From positions 1-64,000 of the forward strand of contig DASUJH010000004.1 in the NCBI GenBank assembly GCA_036279355.1: a DNA stretch of 64,000 nucleotides, given 5' to 3'. The notes below the pieces were generated by a model, which was given only the letters and a program-made list of their open reading frames with translations, ran no database searches and was not told where the DNA came from. Position 1 is the first letter of the stretch. Each line of letters begins with the position of its first letter. The DNA comes from Gemmatimonadales bacterium (GTDB lineage: Bacteria > Gemmatimonadota > Gemmatimonadetes > Gemmatimonadales > GWC2-71-9). Made by a program: the position numbers and the translations under genes. Of this stretch, positions 7,934-53,899 are shown in pieces.

Positions 7934-7970
7934 TTTTGCGGGTTCTCGTCGCGCGTTAGCTTCCGGCATG
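7934..7970 (+). promoter_or_regulatory. putative leaderless promoter of the enoyl-CoA hydratase
   Basis: A TTTTGC (7934-7939; overlapping TTGCGG at 7936) is followed after 17 bases by the -10-like TAGCTT (7957-7962), only 5 bases before the ATG at 7968. Initiation 7 bases after the -10 would fall on the start codon. The same arrangement recurs at several other genes in the window. Confidence 0.45.
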
Positions 7971-8750
7971 ACATTCACGGCGTTGCTCTACGAGGTGGCC
8001 GGCGGGATCGCCCGAGTCACGATCAATCGCCCCGACAAGTTGAACGCGCTCAACGCAAGCGTCATCGCCGAGCTGGACGATGCGGTGAGTCACATCGAGA
8101 GCGACGCCGCGGTGGGTGGAGTGATCCTCACCGGCGCCGGCGGCAAGGCATTCGTGGCCGGTGCGGACATCGCGGAGCTGGCACAGCAGGGGCCAATGGA
8201 AGGCAAGGCGCGCGCGCAGGCGGGCCAACGCATGATGCGGCGCCTGGAGCGGTGCGGCAAACCGGTGATCGCGGCGGTGAACGGGTTCGCGCTGGGCGGT
8301 GGGTGCGAGCTTGCGATGGCGTGCCACCTGCGCGTGGCGAGCGAGACGGCAAAGTTCGGGCAGCCCGAAGTCAAGCTCGGGCTCGCGCCCGGCTACGGCG
8401 GGACGGTGCGGCTGCCGAGGCTCGTGGGACGGGGGCGCGCGCTCGAGCTCTTGCTCACGGGGGACATGATCGGCGCACAGGAGGCATGGCGCATCGGGCT
8501 GGTAAACCGCGTGGTGCCGGCGGACCGGCTGATGGCGGAGAGCGAAGCGCTGATGCGCACGATCCTCGCCCAGGGGCCACTGGCGCTGCGCGCCGTGCTC
8601 GAGGCGGTGGACGCGGGGCTCGACCTCCCGCTCGACGACGCGCTGCGCTTCGAAGCGAACCTGTTCGGCCTGCTCTCAGGGACCGCCGACATGCGCGAGG
8701 GCACGTCGGCGTTTCTGGAGAAGCGGGCGCCTCGGTTCGAGGGGAAGTAG
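7968..8750 (+). CDS. enoyl-CoA hydratase/isomerase (crotonase family)
   Basis: 260-residue crotonase-fold enzyme that hydrates trans-2-enoyl-CoA in beta-oxidation or a related acyl-CoA route. It shows VTINRPDKLNALN, the oxyanion-hole segments AGGKAFVAGADIAEL (about residue 60) and NGFALGGGCELAMACHLRVAS (about 100), and the catalytic Glu region FGQPEVKLGLAPGYGGTVRLPRLVG (about 130). Length is typical. The ATG was preferred over upstream in-frame codons, which would read through the divergent spacer. The precise substrate cannot be read from sequence. Confidence 0.93.
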   Translation: MTFTALLYEVAGGIARVTINRPDKLNALNASVIAELDDAVSHIESDAAVGGVILTGAGGKAFVAGADIAELAQQGPMEGKARAQAGQRMMRRLERCGKPVIAAVNGFALGGGCELAMACHLRVASETAKFGQPEVKLGLAPGYGGTVRLPRLVGRGRALELLLTGDMIGAQEAWRIGLVNRVVPADRLMAESEALMRTILAQGPLALRAVLEAVDAGLDLPLDDALRFEANLFGLLSGTADMREGTSAFLEKRAPRFEGK

Positions 8751-8755
8751 CGCGC

Positions 8756-8798
8756 GGGGCGGCGGGGCGGCGCTACCCCTGCTTCGCCCCGTCGCCCC
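8756..8798. terminator. strong hairpin between convergent genes
   Basis: A 14-base arm (8756-8769) pairs with 8785-8798 with a single G-U wobble and a 15-base loop. It sits at the convergent ends of the enoyl-CoA hydratase and flotillin genes and includes the flotillin stop codon. There is no U tract, so it would work only as a structure-dependent or bidirectional terminator. Confidence 0.55.
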
Positions 8799-10101
8799 GC
8801 GTCACCGGCCTCGGCGATACAGGTTGGGGCGCCACGGGATCGAGCATCCCGCTCTTGGCCACGAGCTGCGCCGCCAGCACCGTCTGGATCACCCCGCTGA
8901 TCTGCTGGGTCGTCGCCTCGGGCGCGCCACCGTCGCCCGCGATCGTGACGAGCTTCGCCTCCGCCAGCGCCTCCGCGATGACGGGCGCGATCTGCGGCAG
9001 CATCTCGATCTGCCGGTAACGGAAGTACGATTCCCCGCCCTCCCGGATCGCCTCGTTCACCTTTCGGATGCTTTCAGCCTGCGCCGTCGCCACCGTCGTG
9101 ATCCGGATCGCCTCCGCCTCCGCCGCAGCCTGCGCCTCGATCCGTACCCGCTCGGCGTCGGCCTTGGCCTGCGCGATCTGCGTCGCATCCAGCTCCGAGG
9201 CGCGCTGCACCGCCAGCGCGTCCTGCTTCTTCGCCTCGGCCGCCGCGACGAGCGCCGCGTTCGAGGCCTTGGTCTGCTCCAGCTCGCGCTGCTTGTCGGA
9301 GATGGCGCGCTCGGCGTCGAGTTGCGCCTCCTTCGAGCGCCGGGCCTGCTGCGCCGAAACGATCTCGGCGTTAGCCTGCGCCTCCGCGGCGCTCTGACGC
9401 CGCCGCGCCTCGGCCACCTCGCTCTGCACCGCCTTGATGTTGAGCGAGTTGAAGATGAGGCCGAGATCGGTGAGCTCGCGCGAGCACGCCTTGCGGATGA
9501 TCACGGCAAGCGGATCGTCATCGTCCTCAACGCTCCCGATGGGTGCGGGCGGCCCCGGCGGCGGCGCCGGCGCGAGCGCGGTACCCGGTGCCGCGCCCTC
9601 GCCCGATGGGAGCGCGCGCACCGGCGCCGTCTTGGCGGAGAAGAGCTGGTCGTGCGTGAGCAGGTTGATGGCGCGGCGGCCCGAGCTCGAGAGCAGGTCG
9701 GTGAGCGTGTTCACCTGATCGCCGTCCGGCTTGGAGAAGAAGCGGTTGGCCGCGGTCTTGATCAGCTCGTCGGTGTCGCCCACCGAGACGATCGCGCTCG
9801 CGAGCACGCGCACCTTGATCGGACGCGGGGTGCCGCTTGCATCCAGGTCCGCGGTCTGGTCGGTGATGTCGAGGTCGATGTTGATGACCTTGCTCGAGAT
9901 TGTCGTGCCGGTCGTGAGCAGCGGGATCTCCTTCGACTTCCCGGGCCCGCGGTAGATGACCGTGTGCCCGTGAAGCCAGCTCACGAGACGGATGGTGCCG
10001 GCTTCCACGTTGCGCAGGATGCTGCTCACAATGAGCGGAAGCACCACGACGACGCCGAGGACGACGATGGCGATGAGAAGCACTGGGCCGAGGAGTTCCA
10101 T
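8773..10101 (-). CDS. flotillin-like SPFH/Band-7 membrane protein
   Basis: 442-residue member of the flotillin/YqiK/FloT group, which scaffold ordered membrane domains. An N-terminal membrane segment (about residues 5-28) is followed by the SPFH domain with YRGPGKSKEIPLLTTGTTISS and IDLDITDQTADLDASG. A long Ala/Glu/Gln-rich coiled coil follows (about 230-360, with AEARRRQSAAEAQANAEI), then a hydrophobic tail region with QMLPQIAPVIAEALA-like residues. The upstream YqiJ-like gene is on the same strand 60 bases away, the usual pairing for this family. The 3' end lies inside a strong hairpin. Confidence 0.9.
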   Translation of the reverse strand: MELLGPVLLIAIVVLGVVVVLPLIVSSILRNVEAGTIRLVSWLHGHTVIYRGPGKSKEIPLLTTGTTISSKVINIDLDITDQTADLDASGTPRPIKVRVLASAIVSVGDTDELIKTAANRFFSKPDGDQVNTLTDLLSSSGRRAINLLTHDQLFSAKTAPVRALPSGEGAAPGTALAPAPPPGPPAPIGSVEDDDDPLAVIIRKACSRELTDLGLIFNSLNIKAVQSEVAEARRRQSAAEAQANAEIVSAQQARRSKEAQLDAERAISDKQRELEQTKASNAALVAAAEAKKQDALAVQRASELDATQIAQAKADAERVRIEAQAAAEAEAIRITTVATAQAESIRKVNEAIREGGESYFRYRQIEMLPQIAPVIAEALAEAKLVTIAGDGGAPEATTQQISGVIQTVLAAQLVAKSGMLDPVAPQPVSPRPVTRGDGAKQG

Positions 10102-10161
10102 GGGAAACGCTCCGAGAAGGAAAGACGCTGCGGGGCTTCGCGCGGCGCTACGCGCTATGCG

Positions 10162-17194: not shown

Positions 17195-17233
17195 TTGCCA
17201 GGACCGCACCGGCGGGTAGCTTCTCATCCCATG
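17195..17233 (+). promoter_or_regulatory. putative leaderless promoter of the 2-hydroxy-acid oxidase
   Basis: TTGCCA (17195-17200), a 16-base spacer and TAGCTT (17217-17222) end 8 bases before the ATG at 17231, so initiation would fall at or next to the start codon. Confidence 0.55.
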
Positions 17234-25086: not shown

Positions 25087-28008
25087 GTGCCGGAGCTGCA
25101 GGAGCGACTTGAAGCCGCGCTAGGTGCCGCCTATCGCCTCGAGCGAGAGTTGGGCGGCGGCGGCATGAGTCGCGTCTACCTCGCCGAGGAGACTGCACTC
25201 GGCCGCCGCGTGGTCGTCAAGGTGCTCCCGCCGGATCTCGCGGCGGGCCTCAACGCCGAAAGATTCCGCCGCGAAATTCAGCTCGCCGCCAAGCTCCAGC
25301 ACCCGCACATCGTGCCGGTGCTCGCCGCCGGGCGCGCCGGCGAGCTGCTCTACTACACCATGCCGTTCATCGAGGGCGAGTCGCTCCGCGCGCGCCTGGC
25401 GCGCGAGGGCGAGCTGCCCGTGACCGACGCGGTCCGGCTCCTCCGCGACGTGGCCGACGCCCTCGCGTACGCGCACGAGCACGGCGTGGTCCACCGCGAC
25501 ATCAAGCCGGGCAACGTGATGGTGAGCCGGCATCACGCGCTCGTCACCGACTTCGGCGTGGCCAAGGCGGTGAGCGAGGCGGCAAGCGGCGAGCCGGCGG
25601 GCGGCCCGTTCACCTCGGCCGGCGTCGCGATGGGCACGCCAGCCTACATGGCGCCAGAGCAGGCAGCGGCCGATCCGGCCATCGATCATCGCGCCGACAT
25701 CTATTCGGTCGGCGTCATGGCGTACGAGATGCTTGCCGGACACACGCCGTTCACCGGCCGCACGCCGCAACAGCTCCTCGCGGCGCAAGTGAACCGCACC
25801 CCCGAGCCGCTCGAGTCGGTGCGGCCGTCGGCGCCGCCCGAGCTGGCGGCGGTCGTCATGCGCTGCCTCGAGAAGCGTCCCGCCGACCGGTGGCAGAGCG
25901 CCGACGAGCTGCTCCGCGCGCTCGAGGCCGTGGCGACGCCCGGCACCGGTACCGTCGCCACCACCGCGCATCGTGCCGCGGCGGTCGCGCCCACGACGCC
26001 GGTGCCGGCAACGCGTGCGCCCCGCCGGCGCCGCGTCACCACCGCGCTCGCCGGCGCCGGGGCCCTCGGCGTCCTTGCCATCGGCCTCCACGCGACCGGC
26101 ATCTGGCCGGGCCGCTCGCTCATGGACCGGGGACTGCTGAGCGCGCGGGAGCGGATCATCGTCTCGGAGTTCCGTAGCCCGCCGGCCGATTCGGTGCTGG
26201 GCGGAGCCATCACCGAGGCGTTCCGGATCGACCTCGCGCAGTCTCCGACGGTCACCGTGCTCCAGCCGGATTACGTCCAGCAGACGCTGGCCCGGATGCG
26301 GCGCGATCCCAAGGCGCCGCTCGACCCGGAGGTCGCGCGCGAAATCGCGATCCGCGACGGGATCAAGGCGTATGTCGCCGGCGAGGTCGTGCACGCCGGC
26401 ACCGGCTACGTCATCTCCACGCGGCTCATCTCGAGCACGTCGGGCGACGCGCTGGTGTCGCTCCGGGAGACGGCCGACGATTCGACCCGGATCCTCTCCG
26501 CCATCGATCGGCTCAGCAAGGCCATGCGCCAGCGCATCGGCGAGTCGCTCCGGACCCTGGGCGCCAACGAGCCGCTCGAGCAGGTCTCCACCGGCTCGCT
26601 CGCGGCACTCAGGAAGTACTCGCTGGCGCTCACCGCCAACCGGGAGGGCGACACGGAGCGCGCCATCGCCCTTTTGCGTGAGGCGATCGGGCTGGACAGC
26701 GGATTCGCAATGGCTTATCGCAAACTGGGCGTGGTGCTGAGCAATAGCGGCGCCCGCCGGAGCGAGCAGGTCGACGCTTTTGCCCGCGCCTACCAACACC
26801 GCGACCGGCTCACCGACCGCGAGCGCTATCTCACCGAGGCGGCCTACGCGGCCTACGTCACCGGCGAGACGGAAAAGGAGATCACGGCCTACCGGTCGCT
26901 GCTCGATCTCTATCCCAACGACACGTATGCGCTCAACAACCTGAGCATCGTGTACACCGACTCGCGGAACTACGCGGAGGCGGAGAACCTCGCGCGCCGG
27001 GCCGTGGATGCGCAGCCAAATGACCCGACGTTCTACCTCAACTTGATGAGCGCGCAGGCATCGCAGGGCAAGCTGGCCGCGGCGCGGGCCACGCTCGACA
27101 CCCTGCGGAGCCGGGTGCCGGGCACGCCGTACGCTGCTTTGTCGGAGGCCGGCTTCGCCGTGATGGGTGGCGACTACGACAGCGCGGAGGCGGTCCTGCA
27201 GCAGTTGCAGACGGCGCGGCGCGAGAGTGCGGGCTGGCGCACCATGACGGCCGAGCAGCTCGGTTTCGTTGCTGCGGCCCGCGGACGCCTGACCGAGTCC
27301 GCAGCGGAGTTCAGCGAGGGCGCGGACGCGGCGGCGTCGCTGGGGCAGCCACAGCAGGTGCTCATGTTCGACGTCGCGCGGGCGGGGATCGATCTCTGGT
27401 TCCGCGGTGCGCGGGACCGCGCCGTCCGGGTCGTGGATGCCGCGCTCGAGCGCCATCCGCTGGCGAGCTTCGCCCCCGCGGACCGGCCCTACATTCCGCT
27501 CGCCACCTTCTACGCCGAGGCCGGCCGGCCCGACCGGGCCCGCGCGCTGCTGGCGGACTTCGACCGGACAGCATCCGCCGGCGACCGCCGCCTCGCGGAA
27601 ACGGAACGCCACGTGGCGATGAGCTCCATTGCGCTCGCGGAGCGCCGGCCGCGCGACGCCATCGCCGAGCTCCGGGAAGCCGGTGACGACAAGTGCGCGG
27701 CCTGCCGGCTGCCCGCGCTCGGCCGCGCGTACGAGGCGGCCGGCGAGCCGGACTCGGCCATAGCGGCCTACCAGCGCTACGTCACCACGCCCTTCATGGA
27801 GCGGCTCGGCCCCGACGCGGTATGGCTGCCCTGGACCTACCTGCACCTGGGCGGCCTCTACGAGGAACGCGGCGACCGGGCACGCGCGGCCGATAACTAC
27901 GGGAAGTTCGTGCGGCTCTGGAAAGGGGCCGACCCCGAGCTCATGCCCAAGGTCGCGGACGCGCGGCGGAGGCTCGCGGCGCTGACGGGGGAGCGCGCAA
28001 CGACGTAA
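25087..28008 (+). CDS. membrane Ser/Thr protein kinase with TPR sensor domain
   Basis: 973 residues. The cytoplasmic PASTA-less Hanks kinase occupies about 16-280: glycine loop GGGGMSRVYLAEE, Lys45, catalytic VHRDIKPGN (Asp138), DFG (155-157) and GTPAYMAPEQ. A proline-rich linker leads to one membrane helix (about 318-337). The outer half starts with a TolB/FlgO-like domain (IIVSEFRSPPADSVLGGAITEAF...AYVAGEVVHAGTGYVISTRLI) and continues with many TPR repeats. Such kinases are numerous in Gemmatimonadota. Ligand and targets are unknown. The following kinase gene begins 16 bases downstream. Confidence 0.92.
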   Translation: MPELQERLEAALGAAYRLERELGGGGMSRVYLAEETALGRRVVVKVLPPDLAAGLNAERFRREIQLAAKLQHPHIVPVLAAGRAGELLYYTMPFIEGESLRARLAREGELPVTDAVRLLRDVADALAYAHEHGVVHRDIKPGNVMVSRHHALVTDFGVAKAVSEAASGEPAGGPFTSAGVAMGTPAYMAPEQAAADPAIDHRADIYSVGVMAYEMLAGHTPFTGRTPQQLLAAQVNRTPEPLESVRPSAPPELAAVVMRCLEKRPADRWQSADELLRALEAVATPGTGTVATTAHRAAAVAPTTPVPATRAPRRRRVTTALAGAGALGVLAIGLHATGIWPGRSLMDRGLLSARERIIVSEFRSPPADSVLGGAITEAFRIDLAQSPTVTVLQPDYVQQTLARMRRDPKAPLDPEVAREIAIRDGIKAYVAGEVVHAGTGYVISTRLISSTSGDALVSLRETADDSTRILSAIDRLSKAMRQRIGESLRTLGANEPLEQVSTGSLAALRKYSLALTANREGDTERAIALLREAIGLDSGFAMAYRKLGVVLSNSGARRSEQVDAFARAYQHRDRLTDRERYLTEAAYAAYVTGETEKEITAYRSLLDLYPNDTYALNNLSIVYTDSRNYAEAENLARRAVDAQPNDPTFYLNLMSAQASQGKLAAARATLDTLRSRVPGTPYAALSEAGFAVMGGDYDSAEAVLQQLQTARRESAGWRTMTAEQLGFVAAARGRLTESAAEFSEGADAAASLGQPQQVLMFDVARAGIDLWFRGARDRAVRVVDAALERHPLASFAPADRPYIPLATFYAEAGRPDRARALLADFDRTASAGDRRLAETERHVAMSSIALAERRPRDAIAELREAGDDKCAACRLPALGRAYEAAGEPDSAIAAYQRYVTTPFMERLGPDAVWLPWTYLHLGGLYEERGDRARAADNYGKFVRLWKGADPELMPKVADARRRLAALTGERATT

Positions 28009-28024
28009 ACCGGAGAGGGCGCTC

Positions 28025-30835
<2,811 letters not shown>

Positions 30836-30889
30836 TACGCTGGGCCAGCAGTGAGACTCACGCCGTCACACCAGGGATGGGAGGCTCGC

Positions 30890-31312
30890 ATGTCCGGGGA
30901 TGCAACGAAGGTGCAGGAGGCGCTGGGCAACCTGGCGCTCCTGGGCGACCATCCGATCAAGCAGTCGTCGCCCAAAATCGACCCGCCGACGCTCGAGGGG
31001 CTCGACGATGTCACGGCGTTTCTCGTGACCTACGTGCTCGACCTGCAGCGGCGGATGGAATACCTCTTCCTCGCGACCGCCGAGTTCGGGGCATACGGCT
31101 CGCCCGAGCTGGCGGCCGATCTCAAGCGGGATTACGACCGGTTGAATGAAGGCACCCTCGAGGCCGTGTCGTGGCAGGAGCGGGCGGCGCGTGCCCAGGA
31201 GGCTTTGCTCGCCGCGCACCGGCGGGCGGGGCCGGCGCACGAGCGGCTGCTCGGGGATCTGGCCGGCCGGGCCAAAGGCGGGGTGCCGCCGGCCACGGGC
31301 CCGGCGCGCTAG
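30890..31312 (+). CDS. hypothetical helical protein
   Basis: 140 residues, no signal peptide or membrane helix, rich in Ala/Glu/Leu and probably helical (TAFLVTYVLDLQRRMEYLFLATAEFGAYGSPELAADLKRDYDRLNEGTLEAVSWQERAARAQEALL). I do not recognise a family. GGGAGG six bases before the ATG marks the start. It follows the two kinase genes on the same strand and is convergent with, and overlaps by four bases, the DUF4097 gene. Confidence 0.55.
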   Translation: MSGDATKVQEALGNLALLGDHPIKQSSPKIDPPTLEGLDDVTAFLVTYVLDLQRRMEYLFLATAEFGAYGSPELAADLKRDYDRLNEGTLEAVSWQERAARAQEALLAAHRRAGPAHERLLGDLAGRAKGGVPPATGPAR

Positions 31313-32313
31313 GAGGCCTTGCGCAGACGCACGTCGCCCGAGCCGGTCGAGACGGCGATCCGGCCGTGGCCGTCGCCGATGGTGCCGCGCACGTGGTCGC
31401 GGCCGGTCCGAACGATCGTCAGCGGAAAGTCGAGATCCACATCGCCGCTACCGGTCTCGAGGTCGACGACGGCGCCGAGCGACGGCGGCGCCGTGATGGC
31501 CACGTTGCCCGAGCCGGTTTGGATCCGGAGCGACTCCACCCCGCCGGTGAGGTCGGCCGTGACGTTGCCGCTGCCGGTTTCGACCTTGATGGTGGGCGTC
31601 TGCAAGTCGCTCAGGCGGACGTCGCCCGCGCCGGTCTCGATCTTGAGCGTCCGCGCCTTGACCCCACCGGCGCTCACTTCGCCCGCGCCGGTTTCGGCCG
31701 CAACGGTTTCGCCCTGAAAATTGGAGATGTCGATCTTGCCGGCGCCGGTCTCGAAGGAGAGTTCGCCCCGGCTGCCGGTGGCGGTGATCGGCGCGGCGCT
31801 GGCCTCGACCGCAATGCGCCCGTCCACGTTCGTGAGCGTCACCGCGCCTACCGCGAGGTGCATGGTCAGTTGATGCCCGGCCGGCACGGCGACCCGGAGA
31901 TCGGCCCAGGCCTCGTCGCCTGAGTCACCGATCCTGAGCCGGCGGCCGCGGTCCTCGTCGTCGTCGTTCCGGTCGAAGGTCCCATCATTTCGCACCCGAA
32001 GCGTGGTCGAGCCGCTTCCCATGGCGGGGTAGCGCAGCCGGTCGCCGGGGTAGACGATCCGGAGCGCGTCGCGGCCCCTCACCTGGCCCTGTGCCACGCG
32101 CAACTTCGCGGCATCGGCGCCGGCCAGTGTCACGGCCACCCCTACACCGTCGCCGCTCCCCGGCTCGACCCGGATGGTGCCGGCCAGATCGTAGATCACC
32201 GGATCGGTTCCACGGAGCACGTAGTTGCCTGAGCCCTGAGCCGAAACGGATGCGGGCAGAAAGGCGACGGCCGAGACAAGCGCGGCGGCGGTGATGGCAG
32301 CGGCGAGACGCAT
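31309..32313 (-). CDS. secreted DUF4097-type beta-helix protein
   Basis: 334-residue exported protein. An N-terminal signal peptide (about residues 2-24, ending SVSAQG) is followed by a right-handed beta-helix-like domain of repeated short rungs: ETGAGKIDIS, ETGAGEVSAG, ETGAGDVRLS, ETGSGNVTAD, QTGSGNVAIT, ETGSGDVDLD, STGSGDVRLR. This rung pattern is the DUF4097 hallmark. An Arg/Asp-rich patch (RNDDDEDRGRRLR) interrupts the middle. Lies between kinases 2 and 3; its minus-strand promoter may be TATAGT near 32404-32409, giving a long leader. Confidence 0.8.
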   Translation of the reverse strand: MRLAAAITAAALVSAVAFLPASVSAQGSGNYVLRGTDPVIYDLAGTIRVEPGSGDGVGVAVTLAGADAAKLRVAQGQVRGRDALRIVYPGDRLRYPAMGSGSTTLRVRNDGTFDRNDDDEDRGRRLRIGDSGDEAWADLRVAVPAGHQLTMHLAVGAVTLTNVDGRIAVEASAAPITATGSRGELSFETGAGKIDISNFQGETVAAETGAGEVSAGGVKARTLKIETGAGDVRLSDLQTPTIKVETGSGNVTADLTGGVESLRIQTGSGNVAITAPPSLGAVVDLETGSGDVDLDFPLTIVRTGRDHVRGTIGDGHGRIAVSTGSGDVRLRKAS

Positions 32314-33295: not shown

Positions 33296-33805
33296 TTACA
33301 TGCCGAGCCGCGTCGCGTAATCGGGACGGGTGATCAGCTCGCCGTTCTGAATGATCTCCCGGTCCCACGGCAGGATAATGAAGTTCTCGGTCTCGAATGC
33401 CCAGAAATCGGGCGCGTACTCGCCGGTCTTGAACGAGACGGCGCTCCGCACCTCAGCCGGGCGGAGCGAGCGCACCTCGCTCAGCGCGAGCTTCATCGTG
33501 TTGCCCGACTCGCAGGTCTCGTCCACCACCAGCACCCGGCGCCCGCGAACGCTTGCCGGCGGCCCCGCGACGACGACCGGATCGGTATCGGCGCCCTGGC
33601 GCGTCACCACCATCGACGCAAAGTCGCACTGCATGATCGAGGCGACGACGACGCCCGGAATGACACCCGCCTTGGCGATGCCGAGCACGACCTCGGGCTG
33701 GAACTCGCGGGCGACCCTGAGTGCCAGCGCGCGGCACAGCTCGCCGAAGAACGGCCAATCGACCTCGAGCGTGCCTCGGGGCGAGGCGGGAGGGGGGCGG
33801 CGCAT
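33296..33805 (-). CDS. phosphoribosyltransferase
   Basis: 169-residue type I PRTase. It has the core VVLGIAKAGVIPGVVVASIM, the PRPP loop VLVVDETCESGNTMKLAL and the C-terminal hood region ending PWDREIIQNGELITRPDYATR, resembling purine (xanthine/guanine/hypoxanthine-type) phosphoribosyltransferases that return bases to nucleotides. The base specificity cannot be read. A strong leaderless-type promoter ends six bases before its ATG. Divergent from the TPR gene at 33934, with the two -35 elements only 5 bases apart. Confidence 0.82.
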   Translation of the reverse strand: MRRPPPASPRGTLEVDWPFFGELCRALALRVAREFQPEVVLGIAKAGVIPGVVVASIMQCDFASMVVTRQGADTDPVVVAGPPASVRGRRVLVVDETCESGNTMKLALSEVRSLRPAEVRSAVSFKTGEYAPDFWAFETENFIILPWDREIIQNGELITRPDYATRLGM

Positions 33806-33839
33806 GGGAGCAAGCTAACGGCCGGCGCGCGCGGAGCAA
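33803..33839 (-). promoter_or_regulatory. putative leaderless promoter of the phosphoribosyltransferase
   Basis: On the minus strand TTGCTC (33839-33834), a 16-base spacer and TAGCTT (33817-33812) end six bases before the ATG (33805-33803). Initiation 6-8 bases after the hexamer would fall on the start codon. Confidence 0.6.
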
Positions 33840-42678: not shown

Positions 42679-45085
42679 CGATATCGCCCCCCGCGTCCTC
42701 CTGCACCACGGCCACCCCCTTGGCCATGTCGTACCCCACCCGGATCACCCGATCGAAGCCTTCGCGCACCGATTCGACGTGGGTGATGAGAATAACCTGC
42801 GGGAATCGGTCGGCCAGACTCCGCAGCAGCTCGACCACCGCCGCCCGGCGGTCCTCGTCCAGCGAGCCGAAGATTTCGTCGAGGACGAGGAGCGACAGCG
42901 GCTGCCCCGCCCGCTCGGCGATCATCTGGCTGATTGCGAGCCGCAGCGCCAGGTTGGCCACGTCCTCCTCACCGCCCGAGATGACGGTCCGGGGCTCGCC
43001 GCCGTCGAGCAGCCTGCCGCCGTAGTCCTCGTCCAGCTCCAGCTCGGTGTACCGCCCGCGGGTGAGATCGTTGACGAAGCCGGAGGCAAGCTCGGAGAGG
43101 TCGGGCCGAAGCGTGGCGTTGAGGTCGGTCCGCAGCTCGTTGAGCGCGCGGTCCAGCTCCTGGTGCAGCGCGTAGTCGGCTGCCGCGATCTTCGCTTCGG
43201 CTTCGCGCGCGGCCCGCTCGGCGCGGCGGCATGCCACGCCCTCCGCCGCCTCCGCCGCCGCCGCCTGCTCGGCGCGCGCGCGGACGAGTGCCAGCTCGGT
43301 ATCGCGCCGCTCGCGCTCGGCGGTTTGCTCGGCATCGCGTGCGGCGCGGTATGCGGACTCGTCGTAGCTCAACTCGGCGATCCGCGCACGCAGTGTCGCG
43401 ACCTTTTCCGCCGCGTGGCCGGCTGCCACGCGCGCCTCCGCCAGCTCGGCCGCAAGCGCCGTGGCGCGCTCTGCGGTACCGCGGACCCGCTCCGCCTGCA
43501 GCGCGAGCGGCTCCAGCGCCTCCATCCGGCGCTGAATCTCGTCGTGCCGCGCGCGATCGTAGCCGCCGGGGAGCCGCGCGAGCGCGGCCTCGAGCTCGCG
43601 CACGCGCGCCGCCAGCGAATCGCGCTCCGCCACGAGCGCGGCCGCGTCCCGCCGCTCGGCGGCGAGCCGCCCCGAGTCGGCCGCCGCCGCGCCCAGCTCC
43701 TGCTCGAGCGCGAGGCGCCGCCCGTCGGCCTCGACCAGCGCGGGCGGCTCCTGCGCGAGCTGCTCGATGCGATGCTTGTAGAAGTTGCCGTGATACACCA
43801 CCTCGTCGAGCTGGCGGTCGAGCACGCCGAGCACCGTCTCGAACTCGTCGCCGAGCGGGCGGGCGCAGGTGGGGCAGTCGCCCTCGCGCCCGGCGGCCAC
43901 GATCCGCTCGCGCTGCTGCTTGAGCTCGTGAAACTGATCCAGCAAACCCTTCCGCTTGGTCTGCGCGTCCTGCGCGTCGCGCACCCATACGGTGCGCTGC
44001 TCCTCCGCCTCGAGCGTGCTCGCGGCGAGTGCAGCGCGGATCTCGGCCACGCGCGCCGCTGCGCCCGCCACCGCGTCGGGCGCGGGGAGGCGGGCGTGCC
44101 GCTCGTCGAGCGCCGCGGACCGGGCGTTGAGCTCCACGAGCTGCGCCTCGATCTGCCGGCGCATGGCAAAGGCGTCCGCGCCGGCGCGCAACTGCGCCGC
44201 TTCGTCCCGGAGCGCGGCCAGCGGCTCCAGGTCGTGCCACAGCTCCTCCAGACGGGCGCGCGCCGCGGTCGCCTCCGCCACCTGATGATCCAGCCGTTCG
44301 ACGCGCTCGGCGGCGGCTTCCGCTGCGTGCTCGCCGATCCGCCGCTCGGTCTCGAGCGCGAGCGCGCGGTCGCGGAGCTGCTGCAGGCGCTCCGAGTGAG
44401 GCCGGGCTTCGGCCAGACGCGCCGCGGCAGATTCGGCGGCCGACACCGCCGACGCACTGGCCGACGTGGCCGCCGCGAGCCGCGCCGTCGCTCGCTCGGC
44501 TTCCGCCTCGAGCGCCGCCGGGTCCGCAAGGCTCGACCGGAGGGCCTCGTGCCGCGCGCGCAGCGCCGAACGCTTCTCCCGGAGCCGCTCCTGCGCCTTG
44601 CTGATCCGCTCGTACCCGAGCACGCGGGAAAGGAACTGGGCCCGCTCGGCGGATTTCATCGCCGCCATCACCGCGAGCTCCTTCTGCCCGGTGAAGTAGG
44701 TGTTGAAGAACTCGTCGCGGGTCATGCCCAGGAGCCGGGTGATGCGCTCGGTCACGGCGTTGACGCTGTTGGCGATCGGCGCGGGCTCGCCGTCCTGGTA
44801 CAGCTCGGCGTTGAAGAGGCTGCGAACGACGCGATAGCGGTGCCGCCCGAGCGAAAACTCCAGCTCCACTTCGACCCGGGAGCGGGGCGGCGCGCCGCGC
44901 CGCTTGATCGAGTCGCGGCCGCCGCGCGCCGCGGTCGCACCATACATCGCCCAGGCAATCGCCTCGAGCAGCGTCGTCTTCCCCGCCCCATTCGGGCCCA
45001 CGATGCCGGTGAGCCCGGCACCGAAATCCAGCTCGGTCAGCTCGTGCTGGCGGAAGTTGACGAGGCGCAGGCGGTGGATCTGCAT
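42665..45085 (-). CDS. sbcC: exonuclease subunit SbcC
   Basis: 806-residue SMC-like ATPase of the MR-complex family that cleaves hairpin and protein-blocked DNA ends with SbcD. It has Walker A GPNGAGKTT (30-38), a long coiled coil interrupted by the zinc hook CPTC (GDCPTCARPLGDEF) near the middle, and C-terminal Walker B and signature: VISGGEEDVANLALRLAISQ, LLVLDEIFGSLDEDRR. Shorter than E. coli SbcC (about 1050) because of shorter coiled coils. The ATG overlaps the sbcD stop (ATGA). Confidence 0.93.
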   Translation of the reverse strand: MQIHRLRLVNFRQHELTELDFGAGLTGIVGPNGAGKTTLLEAIAWAMYGATAARGGRDSIKRRGAPPRSRVEVELEFSLGRHRYRVVRSLFNAELYQDGEPAPIANSVNAVTERITRLLGMTRDEFFNTYFTGQKELAVMAAMKSAERAQFLSRVLGYERISKAQERLREKRSALRARHEALRSSLADPAALEAEAERATARLAAATSASASAVSAAESAAARLAEARPHSERLQQLRDRALALETERRIGEHAAEAAAERVERLDHQVAEATAARARLEELWHDLEPLAALRDEAAQLRAGADAFAMRRQIEAQLVELNARSAALDERHARLPAPDAVAGAAARVAEIRAALAASTLEAEEQRTVWVRDAQDAQTKRKGLLDQFHELKQQRERIVAAGREGDCPTCARPLGDEFETVLGVLDRQLDEVVYHGNFYKHRIEQLAQEPPALVEADGRRLALEQELGAAAADSGRLAAERRDAAALVAERDSLAARVRELEAALARLPGGYDRARHDEIQRRMEALEPLALQAERVRGTAERATALAAELAEARVAAGHAAEKVATLRARIAELSYDESAYRAARDAEQTAERERRDTELALVRARAEQAAAAEAAEGVACRRAERAAREAEAKIAAADYALHQELDRALNELRTDLNATLRPDLSELASGFVNDLTRGRYTELELDEDYGGRLLDGGEPRTVISGGEEDVANLALRLAISQMIAERAGQPLSLLVLDEIFGSLDEDRRAAVVELLRSLADRFPQVILITHVESVREGFDRVIRVGYDMAKGVAVVQEDAGGDIDVAA

Positions 45086-46263
45086 CAGGTGGCCGCCGCG
45101 TCGCGCTCGACCGCGTCGATCAGCTCGACGCCGGTGCGCACGAATGTCTCGCGGTCGATCTCGGCCGGGAGCACCCGGCGGCCGAGATAGGCGCGCACCA
45201 GCTCCGGCAGCGTCTGGCGCCGGCCTGGCGCGCCCACGCCGACGGTTTCGCGCACTTCGGGGCGCCGGACGTCGAGGTTGAGATGGAGCGCCTCGGCCTT
45301 CCGGGCGCGGATCGCGGTGTGGTCGAGCGCGCGGGCCACGTGGCGCGGCACGTCGAGCACCCGAAGCCGCACGACCGCGTCGGTGATGCCGCCGGGAGCG
45401 CAGGCCAGCGCGTCGGCGATGGCGACGTCGAGCGCGGCGGCGCTCATACCTTCGCCCCTGATCGGCGGGAGATCGAGCACGCGGCGTACCGGCGGCACCA
45501 GCCGGGGCTCCACGGTGCCGCTCTCGAGCTCCACCAGCAGCCATCCCTTGCCGGCCGTGCCAAGGCGCCGCTCATCCTCCAGCTCACCCCAGAGATTCGG
45601 GCTCACGTAGTCGAGCGCTCCGGCGTACCACGCGCGCGGCGCCACCTCGTGCCGAACGTGATAGTGGCCGAGCGCGACATAGCTCCAGGCACCCGCCATA
45701 ATCTCGCTCGGGGCGACGGCGGCGCCGCCGTACTCGAGGGCGGCCCGGTCCGCGGGGAGCACGCCCTCGACCTCTCCATGCAGCAGCAGCACCTGATGCC
45801 GCTCACCACCTTCGGGGGCGAGCGCCGGCCGCTCGCCGGCGGCAAGCGCCTGATGGGGAATGGCGAGCACGCTCAGGTCGAGCGCAGGGTAGACGAGCCG
45901 CCGTGCTTCGTCGGCAGCGACGTCGATTCCGAGCTCGGCGAAAAGGCGGAGGATCGAGCCGGTCTCGGCCGAGCGCGGCGTGTCGTGGTTACCGGCGATG
46001 AGCACGATGGGCGCGCCGGGGAGGGCTTCGCGCAACCGCTGGAACTGGCGGAAGGCGAAGACGATGGCCGCGTTGGTCGGCCGCACCGAGTGGAAGAGGT
46101 CTCCGGCCATGAGCACGGCGTCGGGGCGCGCCTCGATGACGCCGTCCACCGCCGCCCGGAATGCGTTGGCGACGTCGGCCTCACGCTGGTTGATGCCGGA
46201 CGGGGTCTGCCGGTGATATTGCCGGACCCCGAGGTGGGGATCGGCGATGTGGGCGAGCTTCAC
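45085..46263 (-). CDS. sbcD: exonuclease subunit SbcD
   Basis: 392-residue calcineurin-like nuclease partner of SbcC. Metal motifs: LAHIADPHLG (Asp8, His10), AGDLFHSVRP, GNHDTPR, LLHGEVEG and ALGHYHVRHE. The GTG start is supported by the family N-terminus MKLxHxADxHLG; a longer form would add an unrelated basic leader. A leaderless-type promoter ends six bases before this GTG, divergent from the MarR gene promoter. Confidence 0.93.
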   Translation of the reverse strand: MKLAHIADPHLGVRQYHRQTPSGINQREADVANAFRAAVDGVIEARPDAVLMAGDLFHSVRPTNAAIVFAFRQFQRLREALPGAPIVLIAGNHDTPRSAETGSILRLFAELGIDVAADEARRLVYPALDLSVLAIPHQALAAGERPALAPEGGERHQVLLLHGEVEGVLPADRAALEYGGAAVAPSEIMAGAWSYVALGHYHVRHEVAPRAWYAGALDYVSPNLWGELEDERRLGTAGKGWLLVELESGTVEPRLVPPVRRVLDLPPIRGEGMSAAALDVAIADALACAPGGITDAVVRLRVLDVPRHVARALDHTAIRARKAEALHLNLDVRRPEVRETVGVGAPGRRQTLPELVRAYLGRRVLPAEIDRETFVRTGVELIDAVERDAAAT

Positions 46264-46298
46264 GGGTGGAGAATGGCGGGATCGGGCGTCGCTCGCAA
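46261..46298 (-). promoter_or_regulatory. putative leaderless promoter of sbcD
   Basis: On the minus strand TTGCGA (46298-46293), a 17-base spacer, CATTCT (46275-46270), then six bases to the GTG start (46263). The -10 is weaker than in the other cases, but the geometry is identical. Confidence 0.4.
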
Positions 46299-46317: not shown

Positions 46318-46355
46318 TTGCGCTTACGGGTCCGGGTAAGTAGCGTACGCCCATG
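46318..46355 (+). promoter_or_regulatory. putative leaderless promoter of the MarR gene
   Basis: TTGCGC (46318-46323), 17 bases, TAGCGT (46341-46346), then six bases to the ATG at 46353. Divergent from the sbcD promoter with about 20 bases between the two -35 elements. Confidence 0.6.
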
Positions 46356-48824: not shown

Positions 48825-50705
48825 TCACCCCCCATACGGATCCTCCCCCGCCCACACCGGCGGCACGCCGCGCCGCGTGCCCGCGGTCTCGGCGCTCACT
48901 CGCCGGCCCAGACATCTCCGGAAGTACGCCTCCACATCATCCGGCCGCTCGCGCCGAGCGGCGGAGAGCGCGCGGCGCACCTCGTCTTCGCGGCGGCCGT
49001 CGATCAGCGCGCGGATCGCGTCGCCCGAAACGCGCCGATCCATCGCCTCGAGCTGCCGTACCACCGCGTCCGCAAACGGCAGGTCGGCCGCGGGCGGAAA
49101 GCGCTCCACGCCGTCGCGGCCGGAGAGCACCGCGGGCCGCGGAAAGCGCACGAAGATCGGCTGGGTGAAATGCGGATGCCTCACCATGAGCTCGCCCTTG
49201 GGGAGCGTCGCGAGCTTGAGCCGAGTGGCGGGTGAGAGCGTGGCGTAGCCGGGCGTCGCCAGCTCGTCGACGTCCATCCGGCCGAACAGCGCCGTGCCCG
49301 CGTTGCCCACCACCCGCCGCTGCACCTGCGAGCGAAACTGCTGCGCCGAGAAGAGCACGAGGCCCAGGTAGCGGCCGCGCTCGGAGAGGTCGAGCAGCAT
49401 CTTTCGCACGTAAGTGTCGGGTCCGTCGCCCGGCGCGTACTTGTTGAGCTCGTCCACGAACACGACGACGTGGTCCACACCAAGGTCTCGCCGCTCCAGG
49501 TGCTCGCGCAGCTTGGAGACGACGCGCGCGAAGACGAGATCCTGCGCCAGCGGATCGAGCCCTGCCACGTCGATCGCGTACAGGCTCCGATCCTCGAACG
49601 CGCCCCACGGAAGATCGTTCGCCGCGCCGTCGTCGGTGACGAGGCCCTTGGATCGCGTCGCGATGTTGCCCAGCCGGTTGCGGATCTTGCGAATCGTGGC
49701 GAGATGATGGGTGCGCCACACCTCCCCGCCCTTCCCCAGCACCTCCATGAACTGAAAGATGCAGCGGAAGAACTCCTCCAGGTCGGCGAAGGTCTGCACC
49801 CGAAATGGCTTCGGGCGCAGCATGTCGTCCTGATACTCCCGGTCCACCACCCGCTCGGCCAGGAAGTCGATGAACGCGTCGGCCTTGGCGTCCACATCGT
49901 CGCGGTTGAGCACCACCTCGGCATAATCGAGCACTTCGCGGAGACCCCAGACGAGCGGCTGGGTGTTGGCCGCAAGATCCTCGTGCCTCCGGAGCGTGTT
50001 GAGGTTGACCCCGTCGGGCTTGAACGGCGCGAAGTAGTGCACGCGCGAAAACGGCTCGGGCCGGAGACCGAGACGCGCGTAGAGCCGGCGGTCGTCTTCG
50101 GAGATCTCGCCCGGCCGGTCGAGAAAGCAGAGGTCGGGACCCTTCACGTTGAGGCAGACGGCGGCGATGCTGCCCTTCCGCGCGGGAAACGTCTGGAAAA
50201 TGCTCGAGAGTAGAAATTCCACCGCGCTCGTCTTGGTGGCGAGGCCGGACACGCCGCTGATGTTGAGGTGCGCCGCCTCGGGGCCGAGCAGGAAGTCGCA
50301 GTCGAGATGGACGGGGGCGTCGAGCCCGCCCGCGGCGTAGACGCCGATGGGCACGCCGGTGGCCCGCTCGGCGGCGGTGTACGACTCCATGCGAAGCGCG
50401 AGTCGCACGTCGTCATCGGTGGCGAGGTGCACGGCGCCAAGCGGCACGGGCTCGAGCGGCTCCTCGGGGAGCTGACGGAGCACGGCGGCCAGGAAGAGGC
50501 GGACCTCGTCGGCCGATGCCGCTGGATCCGGGTAGGCCGCGGCGTCGGTGACGACGGCGTACACCGTGCGGGCCGCGCCGGCAGCGTCGACGCGTACGAC
50601 GGCCCCGATGCCCACGGCCGCGCCTCGCGCGGCGCGGAACCAGAACTGGTGCGGCGTGGCGGGCTTCAATTCCGTGGCCACCACGCGGCCGATGGAGTCG
50701 GGCAT
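48825..50705 (-). CDS. HerA-like (DUF87) ATPase
   Basis: 626-residue DNA-translocase-type ATPase. It has a P-loop variant NISGVSGLATKTS (lacking the usual GKT; the ATKTS form is familiar in this branch), Walker B VVVFVDELNKYAP, and QQFRSQVQRRVVGNAGTALFGRMDVDEL, the arginine/sensor region. The N-terminal domain is a barrel with ELKPATPHQFWFRA. HerA proteins pump DNA, often with NurA nuclease; no NurA is beside it. A leaderless-type promoter lies immediately upstream of the ATG. Confidence 0.82.
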   Translation of the reverse strand: MPDSIGRVVATELKPATPHQFWFRAARGAAVGIGAVVRVDAAGAARTVYAVVTDAAAYPDPAASADEVRLFLAAVLRQLPEEPLEPVPLGAVHLATDDDVRLALRMESYTAAERATGVPIGVYAAGGLDAPVHLDCDFLLGPEAAHLNISGVSGLATKTSAVEFLLSSIFQTFPARKGSIAAVCLNVKGPDLCFLDRPGEISEDDRRLYARLGLRPEPFSRVHYFAPFKPDGVNLNTLRRHEDLAANTQPLVWGLREVLDYAEVVLNRDDVDAKADAFIDFLAERVVDREYQDDMLRPKPFRVQTFADLEEFFRCIFQFMEVLGKGGEVWRTHHLATIRKIRNRLGNIATRSKGLVTDDGAANDLPWGAFEDRSLYAIDVAGLDPLAQDLVFARVVSKLREHLERRDLGVDHVVVFVDELNKYAPGDGPDTYVRKMLLDLSERGRYLGLVLFSAQQFRSQVQRRVVGNAGTALFGRMDVDELATPGYATLSPATRLKLATLPKGELMVRHPHFTQPIFVRFPRPAVLSGRDGVERFPPAADLPFADAVVRQLEAMDRRVSGDAIRALIDGRREDEVRRALSAARRERPDDVEAYFRRCLGRRVSAETAGTRRGVPPVWAGEDPYGG

Positions 50706-50740
50706 GGCGGGAGTATGCACCACAAACGCGCGGCCGTAAA
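50703..50740 (-). promoter_or_regulatory. putative leaderless promoter of the HerA-like gene
   Basis: Minus-strand TTTACG (50740-50735), 17 bases, CATACT (50717-50712), then six bases to the ATG (50705). Confidence 0.45.
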
Positions 50741-50799: not shown

Positions 50800-52500
50800 A
50801 TGAGCATCGTGGGTCCCCGGGTACGCGCGCTGGGCGGCGTCCTCCTTCTCGCCGCCACCGCCTGCTCCGGCCTGAGCTTCCTCAAGGCCCCGGCGGTTCC
50901 CCGCCCGCTCGGCCCGCACGGTACCGAGGAGGGGCCGGCGCCGCTCGCGGCACCGCTCCCCGCCACACCGGATCCGCGCACCGACTGGGGCGCCTACAAC
51001 AACAGCTACGACGGCCTTCGCTACTCACCGCTCACCCGGATCACGCCCGCCACCGCGGCATCGCTGCAGCCGGTCTGCCGCTTCGAGCTGCACGAGCGGG
51101 CCGCGATGGAGACCGGCCTCGTCGAAGTCGGCGGCACGATCTTCGTCGCCACGCCCAAGAACACCTACGCCTTCGACGCGGCCACCTGCGCGCTCCGCTG
51201 GAAGCACCACTACGACTACTCGCCCGAGCCGCCGTTCGACCTCAAGGTGAACCGCGGCGTGGCCTATCTGGACGGGCGGGTGTTCCGCGGCGCCAACGAC
51301 GGCCGGGTGTACGCGCTCGATGCGCGCACCGGCAAGATGCTCTGGAACGTGGTCGCGGGTGACCCCCACGTGGGCGAAACCTTTCCCGCAGCACCGGTGG
51401 CCTGGCACGGGCTCGTGTTCATCGGCAACGCGGGCGGCGACAACTTCAACGTCACCGGCCGGATGATGGCGTTCGACGCGCGCACCGGCCAGCGGATCTG
51501 GACCGCGTCGCTGTTACCGCGGTCGGGCCCCGCCAACTTCACCTGGCCGCCGGCCACCGAAGTGTTCCCCAAGGGCGGCGGCGCCACCTGGACCTCGTAC
51601 GCCATCGACACGGCCGCGGGCCTCGTGTACGTCCCAACCGGCAACGCGGCGCCCGACTTCCTCTCCAACGTGCGCCCCGGCCGCAACGAGCACGCGTATT
51701 CCGTGGTGGCGCTCGACGCGCACACCGGCCTCATCCGGCGGACCTACCAACTCCTGAAGCACGACTTTCACGACTGGGACGTGGCCGCGCCGCCCGCGCT
51801 CGTCACCACGCGCGGTGGGCGCCGGCTCATCGTCGAGGGCGGAAAGGACGGTCATCTTTATGGCATCGATCCCGCAAGCGGTGAGTTTGCATTCAAGACT
51901 CCGGTCGCCACGATCGAAAACGCAGACGCGCCGCTCACGCCCGAGGGGACGCGGTACTGCCCCGGCGTGGACGGCGGGGTCGAGTGGAACGGTGCCGCGA
52001 TTTCACGCGAGACCAACCTGGCCTACGTGCCGTCGATCGATTGGTGCAGCACCGTCAAGATCGAACCCGCCCAGAAGCTGCTCGGCAAGACAGGGATTCC
52101 CTGGACCGGCTCGGCCGAGCTCAAGCACCCCTTCGGCACGTTCGACAAGACGCGGCGCGGGTGGCTCACGGCGGTCGATCTGGACGACGGCCGCGTCGCG
52201 TGGCGCTACGCCTCGCCGACGCCGCTCGTGGCGGGGGTAACCACGACGGCGGGCGGCGTGGTGATGACGGGCGACCTGAACGGCGAGTTCCTCGTGTTCG
52301 ACGCGCACGATGGTCACGAGGTCTACCGCTATTCGACCGGCCAGCCGATCGGTGGCGGCGTGATTTCCTACGCGGTCGACGGGCGCCAGTACGCGGCCGT
52401 CGCAGCCGGCCTCGACGCGCCGCGCACCTGGCAGATCGAGAGCAGCCCGGCCACGGTGGTCGTGTTCGGGCTTGGGGCCGGCGGCGCGCCGGCTCCGTGA
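50800..52500 (+). CDS. PQQ-type beta-propeller dehydrogenase-like lipoprotein
   Basis: 566 residues. The signal peptide ends AATACSG with a lipid Cys at about residue 22. The mature part is an eight-bladed quinoprotein propeller with repeats such as FRGANDGRVYALDARTGKMLW, MMAFDARTGQRIW, HDWDVAAPPALV (possible catalytic Asp), LYGIDPASGEF, AVDLDDGRVAWRY. The family oxidises alcohols or sugars with PQQ. The paired Cys near the active site of methanol dehydrogenase is absent, so substrate and activity are uncertain. Start: ATG heading the signal peptide. Confidence 0.8.
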   Translation: MSIVGPRVRALGGVLLLAATACSGLSFLKAPAVPRPLGPHGTEEGPAPLAAPLPATPDPRTDWGAYNNSYDGLRYSPLTRITPATAASLQPVCRFELHERAAMETGLVEVGGTIFVATPKNTYAFDAATCALRWKHHYDYSPEPPFDLKVNRGVAYLDGRVFRGANDGRVYALDARTGKMLWNVVAGDPHVGETFPAAPVAWHGLVFIGNAGGDNFNVTGRMMAFDARTGQRIWTASLLPRSGPANFTWPPATEVFPKGGGATWTSYAIDTAAGLVYVPTGNAAPDFLSNVRPGRNEHAYSVVALDAHTGLIRRTYQLLKHDFHDWDVAAPPALVTTRGGRRLIVEGGKDGHLYGIDPASGEFAFKTPVATIENADAPLTPEGTRYCPGVDGGVEWNGAAISRETNLAYVPSIDWCSTVKIEPAQKLLGKTGIPWTGSAELKHPFGTFDKTRRGWLTAVDLDDGRVAWRYASPTPLVAGVTTTAGGVVMTGDLNGEFLVFDAHDGHEVYRYSTGQPIGGGVISYAVDGRQYAAVAAGLDAPRTWQIESSPATVVVFGLGAGGAPAP

Positions 52501-52568
52501 CGGGCCGCACCGCAGGTTGAGCTCTCGCGTCGTATCCTTTCCGGTCCCAACAACCGAGGCGTATCACG

Positions 52569-53219
52569 ATGTCGCAACGTCTTGCAATGGCCGGGCGTCG
52601 GCTGCTGACCGGCGCGGCGCTGGGGGTGCTCGCCGCCTGCGCCGGCAATAGCCTGCGGCTCCCGAACGACCAGGACACCGGCTACCGGCAGCGCGCGGCG
52701 ACCGACCGCCAGATGAACGCGTGCCGCGACGAAGTGCTCCACCGCTACGGCGAGCTCAGGTCGGGCGACGTGACGGTCGAGGGCGGCCAGGAGGAGTCGA
52801 ACGGCGAAGGCGCCCGGGTGGGCTGGACCACGCGCGGCGGCGGCTCAGGCAATTGCCTGGTGAGCGCCGATGGCGCCATCCTCGCATTCAACGAGGAGCA
52901 GAGCCCGTACGCGACGGGCGGCGGGTATGGCAACGACAACGGGTACGAGAACAACGGGACCTACGGCGACACGGTGAGCAACGGCGGCTTCATCAACCCG
53001 AGCGAGACGGGGCCGAACAGCCTGCTCACGCGACAGGGCGAAACCTGCCGTGACGAGGTCGCCCGTCGCCTCGACGTCCCCGGCGAAGATGTGACGATCC
53101 GACCCGGCCAGCGCCAGGAGAACGACGCGACGGTGATCAATTGGCAGATGGGCAACGCATTAGGCTCCTGCCTGGTGGACGGCCAGGGCGAACTGGTGCA
53201 GTTCAGAAGGAACACGTAG
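52569..53219 (+). CDS. lipoprotein with an internally duplicated domain
   Basis: 216 residues. The signal ends LAACAG with the lipid Cys at about residue 24. Two copies of one ~60-residue module are separated by a Gly/Asn/Tyr-rich linker: copy 1 begins ACRDEVLHRYGELRSGDVTV and ends NCLVSADGAILAF; copy 2 begins TCRDEVARRLDVPGEDVTI and ends SCLVDGQGELVQF. Each has a Cys at the start and one near the end, which could form a disulfide. I do not recognise the family. GAGG before the ATG is a plausible ribosome site. Confidence 0.7.
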   Translation: MSQRLAMAGRRLLTGAALGVLAACAGNSLRLPNDQDTGYRQRAATDRQMNACRDEVLHRYGELRSGDVTVEGGQEESNGEGARVGWTTRGGGSGNCLVSADGAILAFNEEQSPYATGGGYGNDNGYENNGTYGDTVSNGGFINPSETGPNSLLTRQGETCRDEVARRLDVPGEDVTIRPGQRQENDATVINWQMGNALGSCLVDGQGELVQFRRNT

Positions 53220-53307
53220 CCCCGCGGTTTGGGTGTTGGGCGGGTTTGAGGGTCGGTTGACGGAGCAGGCGTATGCTTGGCGCCAACCATACCCTCGGAG
53301 CCCGCCC

Positions 53308-53763
53308 ATGTCGGTCCTCGGTCTTTCGCGCGGACGCGCACTCGCGTTTCTCGTCCTTGGTGGGGCGCTTGCCGCCGGCGGCCTCACGGCATGCGGCGGC
53401 GACGCCGCCGGCCCGACGCCCGAAGTGGCAGGAACCTATCACGCCACCCGATTTACCGTCTCGAGCGGCGGCACCGAGACCGACCTGCTCGCCAAAGGCG
53501 GCAGCCTCGTGCTCGAGCTTACCCAGGATGGGAGCGCGGTGGCCGGCACCGTGCGCGGGACGCTCGTTCTCCCGGCCGAGGCGGGTGGCCCCGCCACCAT
53601 CGACATGGCCGGCCGGTTCAGCATTGCGGCCACGACCGTCCGCTTCTTTCAGGATGCCGACACCTTCGTGCGGTCGGTCGACTGGACCCTTGCCGGCAGT
53701 GATTTGAAGACGTCGCTCACCGCCGGCGAAGAGACACTTTTGGTCGTGCTCACGCGAGATTGA
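53308..53763 (+). CDS. small lipoprotein of unknown function
   Basis: 151 residues with a signal ending LTACGG (lipid Cys about residue 30) and a beta-rich Thr/Gly/Val domain: GTYHATRFTVSSGGTETDLLAKGGSLVLELTQDGSAVAGTVRGTL. This lipocalin/calycin-like strand pattern is common in Gemmatimonadota lipoproteins but not assigned. The ATG was chosen as the codon immediately preceding the signal. GGAG lies upstream. A TATGCT hexamer (53272-53277) is a possible -10 with no convincing -35. Confidence 0.6.
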   Translation: MSVLGLSRGRALAFLVLGGALAAGGLTACGGDAAGPTPEVAGTYHATRFTVSSGGTETDLLAKGGSLVLELTQDGSAVAGTVRGTLVLPAEAGGPATIDMAGRFSIAATTVRFFQDADTFVRSVDWTLAGSDLKTSLTAGEETLLVVLTRD

Positions 53764-53863
53764 GCGAGGAACCGCGTCCTGCCGTAACACGCCGCGCCGC
53801 AAGGAGATGAATCCCAGCGGCGCGGTCCCGCCGCCCACCTCCCGTGACCCGCCTCACAGACAC

Positions 53864-53899
53864 GTAAGTAGCCTCGCGGCCATGCTGCGACCTACTTAC
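53864..53899. repeat. 8-bp inverted repeat in the leader region of the glycan cluster
   Basis: GTAAGTAG (53864-53871) is mirrored exactly by CTACTTAC (53892-53899) with a 20-base loop that contains the start codon of the 22-residue ORF. It could be an operator or an RNA stem that occludes translation. Confidence 0.6.

Follow-up and report, generated by a model that had tools for sequence, protein, structure and literature searches.

Leaderless initiation takes place at a 5'-terminal AUG or GUG, which is recognised by ribosomes loaded with initiator tRNA. Genes of this kind are well described in bacteria (PMC3160421, PMC12340547, PMC9581028, PMC5397173), and Zheng et al. 2011 (PMC3160421) noted that in groups of high GC (guanine plus cytosine) content the three middle positions of the upstream TANNNT hexamer carry little information. 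An anti-Shine-Dalgarno sequence has been given for class Gemmatimonadetes (PMC10783764); the literature that we searched, with supplementary tables outside its reach, held no description of leaderless genes in Gemmatimonadota. The string 'Gemmatimon' is absent from the main text of Zheng et al. 2011, whose pooled 'Other Bacteria' row (8/20 genomes) may hold one member of the phylum; the text covered of PMC9581028, which cites bacterial genomes found leaderless by GeneMarkS-2, makes no statement on Gemmatimonadota; and the domain-wide MEME scan of PMC12340547 (Fig. S7, Table S7) may include it. Here we analyse a 64,000-nucleotide stretch of contig DASUJH010000004.1 (the window), in which six genes carry a -10-like hexamer directly ahead of the start codon, and conclude that sigma70-type promoters firing at the start codon, with predicted leaderless mRNAs, very likely operate throughout the order to which the window belongs. 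This would be a known start mode in a lineage where the literature search found no description of it.

The original prediction named six genes with a -10 hexamer 5-8 bases before the start, and rechecking of the coordinates confirmed all six, each preceded by a -35-like box at a spacing of 15-17 nt. On the forward strand, TAGCTT (7957..7962) stands 5 nt from the ATG at 7968 of a predicted leaderless enoyl-CoA hydratase gene (PF00378; 7968..8750), downstream of TTGCGG (7936..7941) at a spacer of 15, or alternatively of TTTGCG at a spacer of 16; TAGCTT (17217..17222) lies 8 nt from the ATG at 17231 of a putatively leaderless FMN-dependent dehydrogenase gene (PF01070; 17231..18406), with TTGCCA (17195..17200) at a spacer of 16; and TAGCGT (46341..46346) lies 6 nt from the ATG at 46353 of a MarR-family regulator gene (PF12802/PF01047; 46353..46877), likewise predicted to be leaderless, with TTGCGC (46318..46323) at a spacer of 17. 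The other three candidates are on the reverse strand, all at 6 nt from the start: TAGCTT (33812..33817) before the ATG at 33805 of a gene for a phosphoribosyltransferase-domain protein (PF00156; 33296..33805), with TTGCTC (33834..33839) at a spacer of 16; CATTCT (46270..46275) before the GTG at 46263 of an SbcD/Mre11-like nuclease gene (45085..46263; TIGR00619 at 70.0 bits, below the cut-off of 77.65), which is followed by an SbcC/Rad50-like gene, with TTGCGA (46293..46298) at a spacer of 17; and CATACT (50712..50717) before the ATG at 50705 of a gene (48825..50705) for which neither Pfam nor NCBIfam gives a match at E 0.001, with TTTACG (50735..50740) at a spacer of 17. Four of the six hexamers are thus strict TANNNT and two are CA...T, and strict TANNNT is found at 4/26 operon-first genes of the window. 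A TTGCnn or related box at a spacer of 16-17 had been proposed; the box itself stood, with five TTGC boxes and TTTACG at the 50705 gene, but the spacing did not hold for the TTG box of the 7968 gene. A gene caller independently picked five of the six starts, and for the 50705 gene it chose 50807 instead, a start that would make the gene overlap its divergent neighbour at 50800.

The source genome (3.25 Mb in 60 contigs, 97.5% complete) was sampled over 968,525 bases (30% of its length; 70% GC), and the genome-wide tests were run on this sample. We called 843 genes from coding potential and start-codon type alone, so that upstream signals were unable to bias the starts; 827 of them had usable upstream DNA and were taken into the enrichment test, with transcription units deduced from gene spacing; the 68 same-strand genes whose gaps measured 26-50 were assigned to no class. 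The guess that the genome is Gemmatimonadota-like was borne out by the nearest relatives of one protein, the 7968 hydratase, whose four best matches among those listed were Gemmatimonadales metagenome-assembled genomes (MAGs) at 74-78% identity; the order is very probably Gemmatimonadales. A 16S ribosomal RNA gene was not found in the source bin by a search that also missed 5/14 control genomes.

To determine whether the hexamer is enriched ahead of start codons, TANNNT with its first T at -14..-10 was counted and compared with dinucleotide shuffles, a comparison that the original prediction had set as its own test. The word was present in 22/170 divergent-first genes (3.25 in shuffles) and in 12/203 same-strand genes with a gap above 50 (3.25 in shuffles), giving 34/373 first genes versus 8/374 operon-internal genes; divergent genes with a gap of 30 or less had it in 2/12 cases (0.2 in shuffles) and internal in-frame ATG/GTG codons in 82/17,281. 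When the genes were called a second time (838 genes), the figures were 22/170, 12/212 and 8/357 for divergent-first, same-strand and operon-internal genes, respectively. The outcome that would have refuted the prediction, a lack of enrichment over shuffles, thus did not occur in the 30% sample. With no motif preset, TA...T with its first T at -12 ranked first among 33,152 spaced words at fixed positions upstream of the 373 first genes (17 observed versus 3.4 expected, p 1.1e-7), only two further words fell below 1e-5, both overlapping it, and no word reached 1e-5 in the same scan of operon-internal genes. The enrichment therefore sits at one position and at first genes. Furthermore, a search of the whole source genome for TAGNTT-N{2,30}-ATG that used no gene calls peaked at a gap of 6, with 14 occurrences at 6, 8 at 7, 7 at 8 and 0-6 at each other gap (counts from 100 of 124 matches). 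A position-free expectation-maximisation motif search returned weak GA-rich, Shine-Dalgarno (SD)-like motifs and missed the -10, indicating that the leaderless class is a minority.

Of the two -10 classes proposed, TANNNT was enriched and CA...T was weak genome-wide, with 17 occurrences at -14..-10 of first genes versus 18.8 expected, though 10 of these were exactly at -12. GA...T was somewhat high at first genes (25 versus 17.4), equally so at inner genes (22 versus 13.4), and had no peak, and the remaining one-base variants tested were at or near background in the same sample.

The genes with the proximal word were also distinct in their other signals. SD sequences, counted strictly as GGAG/GAGG at -17..-5, were found in 1/34 motif first genes, compared with 96/348 other first genes and 130/357 operon-internal genes (background at internal ATG/GTG, 7.7%). 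A TTG at a spacer of 16-18 was present in 11 motif first genes, five of them at 17, and mononucleotide shuffles gave a mean of 0.96 and a maximum of 5, with 0/500 reaching 11. The TTG at the right spacer together with the SD depletion argues that the hexamer acts as a promoter and that these genes are SD-free. The further claim that genes with longer leaders carry SD sequences was borne out in part, by the first and inner genes with GGAG/GAGG just given, and fell short for the 252/382 first genes that have neither a proximal -10 nor an SD.

The motif, its position, the gene class, the SD depletion, the -35 box and conservation at some genes are observed here; the transcription start and leaderless translation are what we infer from them. 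As the -10 signal lies ~10 bp from the transcription start (PMC3160421), the usual distance would place +1 at or beside the start codon. A sigma70-type promoter with a TTG-like -35, a spacer of 16-18 and a TANNNT -10 would then begin transcription at the start codon or no more than a few nt from it; the resulting mRNA would have neither leader nor SD, its 5'-terminal codon being used by the ribosome. The leaderless interpretation of the original prediction is in this way supported by a fixed-position word at first genes, a -35 box and SD loss, with the state of the mRNA predicted from them.

The spread of the signal was assessed by counting TANNTT-N6-ATG against the frame-matched TANNTT-N12-ATG in 121 genomes of the phylum, drawn evenly and including the source genome, which itself gave 64 at gap 6 and 18 at gap 12. 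In the window's order (73 genomes, three families), 5,883 occurrences at gap 6 compared with 1,873 at gap 12, and gap 6 was higher in 73/73 genomes, 62 of them at p<1e-3. For 42 genomes from the remaining orders of the class the counts were 2,235 versus 1,450, with 41/42 higher at gap 6 and nine at p<1e-3, and the six genomes of the other class gave 941 versus 903, with 3/6 higher at gap 6 and none significant. The trait is thus widespread across the window's order and weak in the class's remaining orders, and the six genomes of the other class did not show it. A second set of 24 named genomes (nine Gemmatimonadota and 15 others) was picked by hand from 80 hydratase loci; at least two of its nine Gemmatimonadota share counts with members of the 121, so that the sets appear to overlap. 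All nine exceeded at gap 6, with ratios of 1.8-26 and seven at p<1e-3, from Roseisolibacter (104 versus 4) to the weakest (46 versus 26, p 0.012), and 11 of the 15 genomes of other phyla had ratios of 0.94-1.16. The Roseisolibacter sample (286,299 bases; 75% GC), for which the caller was retrained on GC by codon position (228 genes, 84% coding), had the proximal word in 17/114 first genes and 0/72 inner genes; the calls made before retraining (136 genes, mostly with GTG starts; 0 matches) were dropped as poor.

Two other controls were considered. A gap of 13 was set aside as the main control, since it takes the hexamer out of the reading frame of the ATG, which a gap of 6 preserves; it gave a similar result (family ratios of 2.36 for f1, 2.99 for f2 and 0.92 for f9). 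The shuffled word TTNNATN6ATG was also dropped, as it abounds in coding DNA through codon pairs such as TTC GAT. Taken at face value, its count equals or exceeds that of TANNTT in many genomes (46 versus 64 in the source genome), a result that speaks against arguing from composition by itself. One genome of the window's family (G021) had a much higher word background, with 168 at gap 6, 116 at gap 12 and 184 at gap 13; it showed no excess that was consistent, and is possibly a lower-GC member or one that has lost the trait.

Orthologs of individual window genes were compared next to these counts. For the hydratase, 45 of the 80 loci were used, from the matches listed (30 Gemmatimonadota, 15 of other or unstated phyla). 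A proximal TANNNT was found in 12/30 Gemmatimonadota orthologs, and 11 further ones had TANNNT only at -33 to -50, all of them lacking even a lax SD core at -18..-4; of the 15 others, 13 had a lax SD core and one, a bacterium of unstated phylum, had the proximal word. The lax pattern, applied in this ortholog set only, scored in 5/30 Gemmatimonadota rows, four of them as AGGA within TAGGAT and the fifth (L091) as GGAG upstream of the hexamer. Seven hydratase orthologs (L104, L105, L108, L110, L112, L126 and L127) had TAGATT at -33 to -49 and leaders free of a lax SD core, and such distal, SD-free leaders are a possible third start mode. For the sbcD-like gene, 60 genomes had a match and 28 of 30 fetched loci were used (L218 and L229 begin inside the gene); the arrangement TTGnnn-N17-CATTCT-N5-7-GTG occurred in the window's gene and 6/27 orthologs, from seven different genera of the family, with a spacer of 17 in all seven and a spacer sequence that differs by eye. 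The unusual CATTCT box gains support because it is kept with a TTG at 17 in these seven genes. Of the phosphoribosyltransferase orthologs (30 loci retrieved; 56 genomes had a match), 10/29 had TANNNT at -15..-10 and 8/29 had an SD, and of the MarR homologs (the closest 12 of 30 loci), 4/11 had TANNNT at -15..-10, two of the four from one genus.

Several results weigh against a start-site promoter as the general explanation. The strict motif is found in just 34/382 first genes, with ~10 expected from the upstream background, and operon-internal genes show a small excess of their own (8 versus 2.7 in shuffles); among the 34 motif genes, a TTG is missing from the -35 place in 23, and ATG is not significantly preferred as the start (26/34, p 0.14). 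Conservation is likewise partial, as CATTCT is missing from 21/27 sbcD-like orthologs and TANNNT from the called start of 19/29 phosphoribosyltransferase orthologs. Nor is the signature exclusive to the phylum: four of the 15 genomes of other phyla exceeded at p<0.01, namely Hymenobacter (G154; 253 versus 156), a Thermoanaerobaculales genome (G151; 27 versus 11), an Ignavibacteriales MAG (139 versus 99) and a Calditrichota MAG (681 versus 589). The excess in Hymenobacter and Thermoanaerobaculales may reflect leaderless genes or another promoter type.

Other explanations of the proximal word were weighed against the same data. If the starts were misplaced, the -10 would serve a normal short-leader promoter and translation would begin from a later, SD-preceded codon, as might be suspected from the simplicity of the gene caller, from the ambiguous start of the 50705 gene and from three phosphoribosyltransferase orthologs (L186, L188 and L189) that pair an SD before the ATG with TANNNT at -23 to -43. 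We consider this improbable, however, because the motif is concentrated at a single distance from starts that were picked without upstream signals, SD-led hydratase orthologs from other phyla are homologous from this same first residue onwards, and in seven genomes the sbcD-like GTG keeps a distance of 5-7 nt to the hexamer. Less probable still is a role in translation, in which the A/T patch would be an S1-type site or an unstructured region and not a promoter. For some phyla, an AT-rich bias between about -20 and -10 has been described that is not simply due to Pribnow boxes (Nakagawa 2017, PMC5397173), but the signal found here is confined to one specific word, TA...T at -12, and two words that overlap it; a -35 accompanies it at the right spacer, and it stands mostly at operon-first genes. 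That the six sites are chance picks within one window is hardly credible: although a -10 with a loose -35 is a weak pattern, one proposed site of the seven did not hold up and CA...T shows no enrichment across -14..-10, the genome sample, the Roseisolibacter sample, the counts in 121 genomes and the orthologs all agree, and for the site class as a whole chance is largely contradicted by the positional word scan. Promoters that fire at the start codon thus remain the reading that we favour.

These promoters would account for a limited share of genes. By strict TANNNT, it is roughly 6% of operon-first genes in the source genome (34/382, with ~10 as background) and roughly 12% in Roseisolibacter (17/114, with ~3 as background), estimates that depend on the simple gene caller, and leaderless-type use stands beside SD-led genes in these genomes.

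The mini-ORF (open reading frame) at 53882 had been put forward as a possible seventh case. Its TAGCCT (53869..53874, forward strand) stands 7 nt from the start; the frame encodes only 22 amino acids, there is no TTG box at spacers 15-19 and the site lies within an inverted repeat (53861-53871/53892-53902), so that we regard it as doubtful and do not count it. Three copies of the sequence GTAAGTAG are present in the 968-kb sample, all within the window, at 46336-46343 (+), 53864-53871 (+) and 53892-53899 (-). One copy overlaps the -10 of the MarR gene, and the other two, ~7.5 kb away, form the arms of the inverted repeat, upstream of two epimerase-like genes (53991 and 55106). About 5.9 copies are expected in the sample by base composition and 0.08 by dinucleotide shuffles of the window; the copies are a possible MarR operator pair, which we offer only as a lead.

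Further arrangements around proximal -10 sites were seen outside the window. Divergent genes with ~60 bp between their starts, both with a proximal -10, occur at 27719-29008 (-) and 29068-31452 (+) of G000 C12 and in Roseisolibacter L178 (genes with low ends at 5054 (-) and 5467 (+)), and each pair would represent two leaderless-type promoters back to back. In Roseisolibacter, the palindromes ACCGACCGGTCGGT and TTAGGACCGATCGGTCCTAA were seen by eye at the L167 gene (low end 4234, -) and the L183 gene (low end 5064, +); they overlap or adjoin the proximal -10, placed as repressor operators would be.

An evolutionary scenario is also compatible with these data. Leaderless expression may be order-wide in Gemmatimonadales and have expanded within Gemmatimonadota independently of Actinobacteria and Deinococcus-Thermus, with orthologs switching between leaderless and SD-led modes as the -10 shifts relative to a fixed start and leaving intermediates (a proximal -10 without SD; a -10 at -23 with SD; a -10 at -30 to -50); we rate the odds of this scenario as even. 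For this little-studied phylum, a leaderless model should be part of both start-codon calling and promoter prediction, and the contrast between the order and the rest, together with families that mix leaderless-type and SD-led orthologs, would provide material to study shifts between start modes.

The genome of Mycobacterium tuberculosis is high in GC. It mixes leaderless and leadered genes (PMC3898074), as the genomes analysed here appear to do, although its transcription starts were mapped by RNA sequencing and those proposed here are read from sequence. The genes described here also resemble the TA-led genes of Zheng et al. 2011 (PMC3160421), in which TANNNT lies ~12 bp before the start and which were set apart from SD-led genes; the averages in Table 2 of that study are 19.2% of genes in Actinobacteria and 39.4% in Deinococcus-Thermus, compared with ~6-12% of first genes here. 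In Deinococcus-Thermus (PMC12340547), the -10 is typically 6-7 bp before the ORF, yields a leaderless mRNA and is strengthened by a -35, an architecture like that of the window; there it was tested with reporters and covers ~30% of ORFs, whereas here it is deduced from the DNA and would serve a smaller share of genes.

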